Below the pieces are notes generated by a model that was given only the letters and a program-made list of their open reading frames with translations, ran no database searches and had not been told where the DNA came from. Of a DNA stretch of 64,000 nt, positions 21,845 through 24,401 are shown piece by piece; position 1 is the stretch's first letter; each line of letters starts with the position of its first letter. The stretch lies in NCBI RefSeq assembly GCF_000423865.1, contig NZ_AUIU01000011.1:186001-250000 (forward strand), given 5' to 3'. Position numbers and translations under genes: made by a program. Source of the DNA: Thermodesulfovibrio thiophilus DSM 17215 (lineage in GTDB: Bacteria; Nitrospirota; Thermodesulfovibrionia; Thermodesulfovibrionales; Thermodesulfovibrionaceae).

Positions 21845-21970
21845 CGTGAGAACTGCTCAGGAGCTATTGAGCCATATGGCTATGGAAATGATGATTTTAC
21901 TTGGTGGACGGTAGGGGAGTCGAACTATTGTTATAAGGCAGTTGTCAATAAAATTGTATTTATTCTCTAA
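21845..21970 (+). pseudogene. Short protein-like relic (unidentified)
   Basis: A 41-codon frame with no start codon, opening right after a stop at 21842. It reads NCSGAIEPYGYGNDDFTWWT and, further on, SNYCYKAVV before ending in TAA at 21968. The Trp/Tyr/Cys-rich composition is unlike translated non-coding A/T-rich DNA, so it may be a remnant of a gene or mobile element. The 17-bp inverted repeat (21937-21953) lies inside it. I do not recognise the family. Confidence 0.3.
21937..21953 (+). repeat. Left copy of 17-bp inverted repeat
   Basis: GGCAGTTGTCAATAAAA. An exact reverse-complement copy occurs at 24498-24514, so the two face each other about 2.5 kb apart, as terminal inverted repeats would. 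Between them lie the transposase-like relic, the SH3 gene and the broken cytochrome. Confidence 0.6.
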
Positions 21971-22165
21971 ATCTGGAATTCAGGATCTGTCTAATTTCAT
22001 ATAGCACCTCTTTTGATACAGTAAGGGTTTTCTCCATATACCCAGGGTTATTCTGTTTACAATAACATAGATAGAAATCTCAGCTGTTTTAACTGACTGA
22101 AAATATCCACCATGATTGACTGCATAAGGGTTCAAATGCATTCACTGCCTCCTCATAGTTGTTGA

Positions 22166-22414
22166 TTAATTTGATCCTGTTTCTTCGTTAAATCTGGAGA
22201 CATTTTCCTTTGTAGAGATTATGAGTAGCAGCCTTTTTAATCCCCTTCCAATTAAGTCATTAAGTATTTTTAAAGTATTTTTAGCCAGTCCCCTTTCTTC
22301 TCTGATCCCCAATATACATAATATCCAAAGAAATCTTTCCTGAGATTCATATCCATCCCTTGATATCGTGCTTAATGTAAAAAGAATATGGCTGATGTGG
22401 TAGTTGCCCTTCAT
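22166..22414 (-). pseudogene. Transposase-like fragment (IS256/mutator type suspected)
   Basis: An 82-codon minus-strand frame with no proper start. The stretch ILGIREERGLAKNTLKILN followed by DLIGRGLKRLLLIIS resembles the middle of IS256-type transposases, where a GI/LGV...W...L.DL..RGL..LLLIISD pattern precedes the second catalytic Asp. Here the Asp position is Thr-Lys, and the frame stops soon after. No catalytic DDE set is complete, so it is a dead fragment. The adjacent frame 22347-22547 is low-complexity and not recognisable. Family assignment is tentative. Confidence 0.4.
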
Positions 22415-22534
22415 GAACCAAAATACGCTTTTTTAGATACAATCCCTTAATCGGTTTTTTAAAAAATATCTTTTGCCAGATAAAAAAGAAGTTAACAAAT
22501 TCAATACAATTATGATCAAAACTCAAATAATTTA

Positions 22535-23008
22535 TTATGGTATCCATAAATAACTTTTATGAATCCACCCTGAGTCACCCCACTGATCTTGAAATTTTAC
22601 CCAGTTTCCTTGAATTTTTATTACTTTAAAGGAATAATATTTTTCTACAAAACCTAATTTAGAGTACTTTGTGGAAGGTCCGCCTCTTACGTTGACTTTT
22701 TTTGCTTTGACAACTCCGCATTTTATCTGATCTGACACAAGACTTCTATGAACCCAGTTAACATCTCCATCCACATCTTTAACAGCATACCAATTTCTAT
22801 CTAAACTCAGTCCAACTTTAACAAGAGGCATATATTTACCAACTGTCCATGCTTTTTTGTAGCTCGTGCTAGGACATAATCTTATATTTGCCGACTCTGT
22901 TTTTATACACAGAGCTTCAGAAAAGTTTGTAAAAACAAAAATAGTTATAACTATCAATAAAGTTTTTATGTTTATAAGCTTTGAAGTTGAAAAATAGTTT
23001 GTTAACAT
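22535..23008 (-). CDS. Secreted protein with two bacterial SH3 domains
   Basis: A 157-residue exported protein. A signal peptide spans about residues 10-32 (LLIVITIFVFTNFSEA), with two SH3b domains after it: ALCIKTESANIRLCPSTSYK...WVHRSLV and KAKKVNVRGGPSTKYSKLGF...SGWIHKSYL. Bacterial SH3 domains of this type usually bind peptidoglycan peptides. AGGAGGAG stands 4-5 nt before ATG at 23008, preferred over an upstream TTG that adds 11 residues. It sits alone among relics, yet the frame and ribosome binding site are intact, so it is probably functional. Confidence 0.8.
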   Translation of the reverse strand: MLTNYFSTSKLINIKTLLIVITIFVFTNFSEALCIKTESANIRLCPSTSYKKAWTVGKYMPLVKVGLSLDRNWYAVKDVDGDVNWVHRSLVSDQIKCGVVKAKKVNVRGGPSTKYSKLGFVEKYYSFKVIKIQGNWVKFQDQWGDSGWIHKSYLWIP

Positions 23009-23229
23009 CACTCCTCCTACTGCAAATAGATTTTTCAACAAAAGTTTGAAAATAATTGTTTAATATTAGTAGAAAAATATTTCAAGATAAAATGGTCAGA
23101 TTATATGTAATTTAAAAGTATAATAGTAGAATTCAATTGAGTTTATCAACTTGGATTATGGCAGCATTAGTCCAGAGTGTAGTCTTAGCAACCACTTTTT
23201 TAAATTAATGACAATAATAGGAAATTTAA

Positions 23230-24401
23230 ATATTACAGGTAAAACTTAATCCTGATCATAAGTTCTACTATACGCAAGATCAATAATAGGAACACCAAGA
23301 ACTTTAGATGCATTCAGCAGAATGATTAAGAACTATCTTCTCAGCGATCAATGGAAGTATGCAGGGGTAAAGAAAATTGAAGATATCAAAATAGAACATC
23401 TTATGCCCTGTCTTGAATGCCACCTTCCTCAGACTAAGTTTGCAACAGATGATGTGGCGGTGGAAATAGCAAAAGCTGCGGTTAATGGTGATTTAAACAC
23501 CCTTAGCAAGCTTTCCATAAACTGCCTTGTATGCCACCATGATAAGGCAATTATTCATCAATGGGTTGATGGCCCTCCAGAGGACAATGTCATATACGGT
23601 AATAAATCAGGAAAGCATGAAGGTGTTTCATATTACAGCATGATTAAAAAGAGTCCGGTTCTTCAGGAGTCCATCTTCTGCGGGCAGTGTCATGGTCTGG
23701 GGCCTGGTTTTCATTATCCAAATCCTGTCCACTGTGCCATGTTGTATGGAAGCTATCTTAATGCATATATTCCAAGCGGAGGAACAAAAACCTGTCAGGA
23801 CTGTCACATGGAAAAGGGACACTTTATGTCAGCTTATAGTGACAGTGATATGGCTAAAAAGGCAGTAAGAGTGGACGTAGAAACGCTTGCGTATTATTTT
23901 CATCCAAAGGCTTTTGAGTGGACACCACTTGCGGTTGTAACTGTTCGCATGACTTGTAATGCCGGGCACAGAATTCCAGATGGCTGACCCACTCCGAATC
24001 GGCTGGTCCTGGATGTGACCGCAAAAACAAAGGATGGGAAAGAGATATTCCGTGAATCAAAAATTTATATGCCACAGGCTTTAAGTTATGGACGGGGCAA
24101 TTTCATGTGGTCTGATGGAGCTTACCGGGGTTGGAAAAGCGCAATTATTAGAGACACCTCACTTCAGCCTTTACAAACCAGGATAGAAACCTTTGAGATT
24201 CCATTTCCTCTTGAAGTCTTAGAAAAGGATGGTAAAAAGCAAAGAATAGTTAAATATGAAGAAATGAATGTGACAATTCAGCTGTGGTATCTACCGATTG
24301 GAGGTGATCCAAAACTTGGAACACCAGGAAAAACTCAGTTTTTGTTTTATGAGACAACTAAAAATATAAAGCTAAAACCAAGAGATTCTTATATACAGTA
24401 A
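23230..24401 (+). pseudogene. Multihaem c-type cytochrome relic, ExtKL-like, with in-frame TGA
   Basis: Coding similarity starts near 23230 in one frame (VKLNPDHKFYYTQDQ). It shifts by one base near 23281-23284 (IIGTPRTLDAFSRMIKNY), so a frameshift is likely. The main frame then carries four CxxCH haem sites (CLECH, CLVCH, CGQCH, CQDCH). At 23985 a TGA interrupts GHRIPDG-TGA-PTPNRLVLDV. The same frame continues for 138 codons to 24401, ending in LWYLPIGGDPKLGTPGKTQF. No signal peptide or start is seen. From memory, an NCBI family named multihaem cytochrome (seleno)protein ExtKL has a Sec codon, which would explain the TGA; the frameshift and missing 5' end still point to a dead copy. Confidence 0.7.
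23988..24017 (+). other. Possible SECIS-like hairpin after the TGA
   Basis: Directly after TGA (23985-23987), CACTCC (23990-23995) can pair with GGA-T-GTG (24011-24017, one bulged T). This leaves a loop that contains CTGGTCC, with a smaller GG/CC pairing inside (24001-24002 with 24008-24009). Bacterial SECIS elements are hairpins at about this distance with G in the apical loop. The stem is modest and folding was done by eye. Confidence 0.3.

Follow-up and report, generated by a model that had tools for sequence, protein, structure and literature searches.

A 5'-truncated extKL gene with a predicted selenocysteine codon and an intact SECIS-type hairpin in Thermodesulfovibrio thiophilus

The 64,000-nucleotide stretch of Thermodesulfovibrio thiophilus DSM 17215 DNA analysed here (the window) carries a gene copy of the extKL family interrupted by an in-frame TGA. 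We consider it very likely, with a probability of about 0.88, that this is a front-truncated, horizontally acquired extKL with a true selenocysteine (Sec) codon and SECIS element that is now a young pseudogene. The copy lies on the plus strand at 23268-24401 and covers positions ~64-422 of the 423 in the NCBIfam profile NF040886 for multihaem cytochrome c selenoproteins. It would represent the remaining five sixths of a gene for a periplasmic pentahaem c-type cytochrome. A stop codon in the window is thereby reassigned as a Sec codon, and the reading of the damage at the 5' end of the gene is corrected.

Results

Reading frame and family membership

With the TGA at 23985-23987 read as Sec, 23268-24401 is a single continuous frame of 377 codons that has no shifts and no other internal stop. 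It encodes four CxxCH haem motifs, CLECH (23409-23423), CLVCH (23523-23537), CGQCH (23679-23693) and CQDCH (23793-23807), which align with the second to fifth haems of a five-haem family. The TGA follows within GHRIPDG-U-PTPNRLVLDV, and 137 more codons are open before the stop at 24399-24401. The initial annotation, made from the sequence alone, had described these four sites, the motif around the TGA and the open frame beyond it, all of which are present where it placed them; the one-base shift that it also reported, near 23281-23284, was not borne out (see below). When the DNA after the TGA was shuffled, the frame remained open in none of 5000 trials, and the read-through protein matched NF040886 at profile positions 86-422 with 412 bits (E = 1.8e-123). 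Neither the frame after the TGA nor the family match can therefore be put down to chance.

NF040886 is named 'multiheme c-type cytochrome (seleno)protein ExtKL' and has a curated cut-off of 250 bits; at the genome level the copy scores 414 bits. The parts before and after the TGA match the profile separately and at adjoining positions (86-314 and 316-422). On this evidence the window copy is an ExtKL-type multihaem cytochrome by descent, in agreement with the first assignment. Each of 36 aligned homologues encodes five CxxCH motifs, against four in the window copy, and we therefore file the latter as a truncated gene derived from the family and not as a working ExtKL. It has nevertheless kept 31 of the 32 family-invariant columns, the sole loss (H to Y) falling at the break. 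A profile search of the same genome found no second, intact ExtKL, so that the copy at 23268-24401 is the only one.

The TGA codon is conserved among homologues

Homologues were collected from GTDB genomes and from 100 genomes related to that of the window; TGA was translated as Sec, and 36 homologues were aligned with the window copy. At the column of the window TGA, 28 of them have TGA, eight have a Cys codon and no other codon occurs. Most of the TGA homologues are full-length. None of the homologues has a second TGA within the conserved protein, any extra TGAs lying upstream or past the C-terminal end. The Cys versions (L043, L044, L047, L049, L050, L052, L053 and L061) form one clade of the order, with full support in a maximum-likelihood tree, which amounts to a single change. 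Some genomes (e.g. G029, G017 and G040) have a second, TGA-free ExtKL copy that also scores above the family cut-off.

A search against the PDB matched MccSep, a 'multiheme cytochrome c selenoprotein', over residues 73-444 (E = 1.7e-96). U325 of MccSep (entries 9wt8, 9wta and 9wtb) aligns with the window TGA, and the U325A sequence (9wt9 and 9wtc) has Ala at exactly that position. The MccSep structures, with the TGA falling at U325, thus already give structural support to the Sec residue of the family. At 450 residues the MccSep chain is complete, whereas the window copy begins only at MccSep residue 73.

The genome encodes the selenocysteine machinery

The initial annotation had suggested a search for selA, selB, selC and selD, and all four genes are encoded in the same genome, selC being a tRNA-Sec with a UCA anticodon. 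The selD gene has an in-frame TGA of its own, and so does a formate dehydrogenase-like gene. The SelD product (L010:1498-2547) reads KAAG-U-AAK near its N-terminus and is a Sec-containing selenophosphate synthetase; of the 16 genomes in the genus, 12 have a selD with TGA, among them all 11 that are of good quality. These genes give the organism the means to insert Sec into other proteins. The second-best matches to selB were four near-identical elongation-factor-type frames of 403 amino acids at the ends of contigs C2, C9, C10 and C18 (L015-L018), which are probably EF-Tu copies at assembly breaks.

A SECIS-type hairpin follows the TGA

Just 3' of the TGA, at about 24002-24022 on the plus strand, folding, conservation, covariation and a published bSECIS rule (PMC13188914) together point to a bacterial SECIS-type hairpin. 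It has 7 bp, the core pairs being GGUC/GACC and a C-G pair beside a bulged U, and it is capped by a five-nucleotide apical loop, UGGAU (24010-24014), 22 nt past the UGA. The hairpin is kept in all 29 sequences with TGA, the window copy included, and is absent from all eight Cys homologues. Of six pairs tested, three have changed at both positions (from G-C to A-U in two cases and from C-G to G-C in one). At 0.115 (0.052 in shuffles), the covariation score is higher than in any of 500 shuffles, and the signal is lost when the partner strand is slid by 1-3 columns. RNAalifold recovers the same helix. In the window copy the outermost tested pair does not form, and a pair one base further out takes its place.

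Codon usage within the hairpin is constrained beyond the needs of the encoded residues. Where residues are the same, codon identity among Sec homologues is 0.83 inside the hairpin and 0.43 elsewhere, as opposed to 0.46 and 0.47 among Cys homologues, which indicates selection on the RNA and not on the protein. The predicted energy of the window hairpin in a 45-nt fold is -7.2 kcal/mol, close to those of the intact relatives L022 (-7.4) and L038 (-7.2). Its geometry agrees with the bSECIS search rule, while its energy is marginal against the -7.5 of that rule (PMC13188914). No relevant match was found in Rfam. As judged from these comparisons, the hairpin is a SECIS-type RNA signal that is still intact. 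SelB carrying Sec-tRNA(UCA) would bind this hairpin in the mRNA and insert Sec at the UGA.

The initial annotation had proposed that the TGA was, or is, a Sec codon, and had set against this a plain nonsense mutation, with TGG, TGC or no codon at the position in close homologues and no Sec machinery in the genome. A TGA that arose as a chance stop in a decaying cytochrome gene without Sec would fit a copy that is truncated and so probably non-functional. However, this account is hardly credible given that the same codon is TGA in most homologues and Cys in the others, and the homologue codons by themselves already refute it. The SECIS hairpin with its synonymous constraint, the U at the matching position of a solved selenoprotein and the Sec machinery in the genome also speak against it; the only alternatives to TGA are Cys codons confined to one clade. 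From all these sequence comparisons, TGA 23985 thus reads as a genuine Sec codon.

The 5' end of the gene is missing

A frame-aware alignment of a profile of near relatives with the DNA follows one frame back to 23268 and ends there, where the window reads LYARSIIGTPRTLDAF and the family HAKSLVGTPRTM. Upstream of this edge no ExtKL homology was found in any frame (score 19.6; shuffles averaged 21.2, and 42 of 60 scored as high or higher). The place of the signal peptide and first haem is taken by an A+T-rich stretch at 23009-23267, likewise without ExtKL homology in any frame. About 55 residues at the front of the protein, including the signal peptide and haem 1, are therefore gone, and the missing N-terminal part was not found elsewhere in the genome, which is 99.8% complete. 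The first ATG in the frame is internal, at 23322, and no ATG with a signal peptide was found. The initial annotation was right that the copy has neither start nor signal peptide, but the defect behind this is a truncation. The one-base frameshift at 23281-23284 is rejected because the alignment keeps to a single family frame from 23268 onward, and the upstream reading PDHKFYYTQD has no family support.

It appears very unlikely that the living organism has an intact gene whose 5' end is missing here through an assembly or sequencing error at 23268. The genome is a draft of 18 contigs, there are repeats nearby and the remaining frame is well preserved, as such an error would allow. However, the break lies deep within a 329-kb contig and is preceded by hundreds of unrelated bases, well beyond any single-base error, and the lost residues turn up nowhere else in a nearly complete genome.

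Genomic neighbourhood

The neighbours of the copy are an SLC13 transporter gene, a block of debris and cimA, and there is no extHIJKL cluster around it. The debris adjoining the break (21937-23008) is made up of pieces with 86-95% identity to sequence elsewhere in the genome. It forms a mosaic (L083, L084 and L086) of segments duplicated in contigs C16, C17, C5 and C6. The C16 copy of one block carries the remnant of an IS256 (Mutator) transposase, and a copy of an SH3-domain gene on the minus strand (22535-23041) is 95% identical to C16 at the DNA level.

The G+C content of extKL, 0.41-0.43, is at the top of the 62 genes in the window (0.334 +/- 0.027), the rise being confined to ~23400-24200; the contigs of its nearest relatives have 0.42-0.47. 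In the 15 other genomes or species of the genus, extKL was found neither by profile nor by DNA comparison, where matches stayed at chance level (<=32 bases). At the orthologous locus of the sister species, cimA is present next to a different upstream neighbourhood, with no ExtKL DNA or protein.

Discussion

Origin and fate of the window copy

The G+C content and the absence from the rest of the genus suggest that extKL was acquired from another lineage, most likely one of the same order. The 5' end, comprising the promoter, start codon, signal peptide and first haem site, would then have been lost by deletion or rearrangement beside the transposon debris. Horizontal gain, with the 5' end lost afterwards from a rearranged region, explains the data most simply, although they also allow that extKL was lost from all the other species sampled in the genus. 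As 31 of the 32 invariant columns are kept, either the truncation is recent relative to the sequence divergence or selection has continued; we think the former preferable.

Without a signal peptide or start, the protein would be neither exported nor loaded with haem, and the copy is almost certainly a pseudogene. It is very improbable that what is left of the frame continues to be expressed and is maintained by selection, its product being a shorter Sec protein that is not exported or starts in another way. The retained invariant columns, the long frame with no stop but the Sec codon and the intact SECIS would all accord with continued use. However, no start codon precedes the internal ATG at 23322, periplasmic attachment of c-type haem is impossible in the absence of a signal peptide, and promoter-like sites for the copy are no more frequent than expected by chance. 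We see a yet slimmer chance that ribosomes read the frame through the UGA and that selection maintains the product, a Sec protein that is not exported or is targeted in another way; if so, it would be a selenoprotein that had lost both its export signal and its first haem. From its sequence the window copy is probably dead, as the initial annotation had suspected in describing a possibly dead copy with a fossil Sec codon. The copy would then be a young pseudogene in which the Sec codon, though fossil, and the SECIS are both intact.

Read as a young pseudogene, the window copy is a further example of a selenoprotein gene apparently obtained by horizontal transfer and later disrupted, with its SECIS left intact. 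It is a small data point on the gain and loss of selenoproteins in Sec-decoding bacteria. The general picture is unchanged: ExtKL was already public, and so were the prediction of its Sec residue and the solved structures of a family member.

Relation to known ExtKL proteins

ExtKL of Geobacter sulfurreducens (GSU2937-GSU2936) has been a predicted selenoprotein since 2007 (PMC1914089, PMC5877670, PMC6148476). It is a pentahaem cytochrome, and its gene cluster has been linked to the reduction of metals or of selenite/tellurite and to extracellular electron transfer (PMC5877670, PMC6148476). Like the window copy it belongs to NF040886, and the TGA divides the ExtK and ExtL halves of the older annotation. 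Unlike it, the window copy has no signal peptide or first haem (four of five CxxCH motifs) and lies outside an extHIJKL cluster. Being unexportable and haem-less as it stands, the window copy should perform none of the roles of the Geobacter protein.

The closest relative found, from genome G042 of the same order (L037/L102), is 63% identical to the window copy and has the same TGA and identical SECIS helix pairs. This relative is intact, with a signal peptide and five haem motifs, and stands alone beside housekeeping genes. As it too is without the extHIJKL cluster, the cluster does not define the wider family.

The pentahaem cytochromes of cable bacteria (sPHC, PMC11976967) are only ~33% identical to the window copy. 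ExtKL homologues of Ca. Electrothrix aarhusensis (L028) and of a member of the Desulfobulbaceae (L026) share both the TGA and, in the same place, the SECIS hairpin. A 'two-gene structure' was described for a cable-bacterium ExtKL homologue in a report that does not mention Sec or selenium (PMC11976967); this may likewise be one Sec-containing gene.
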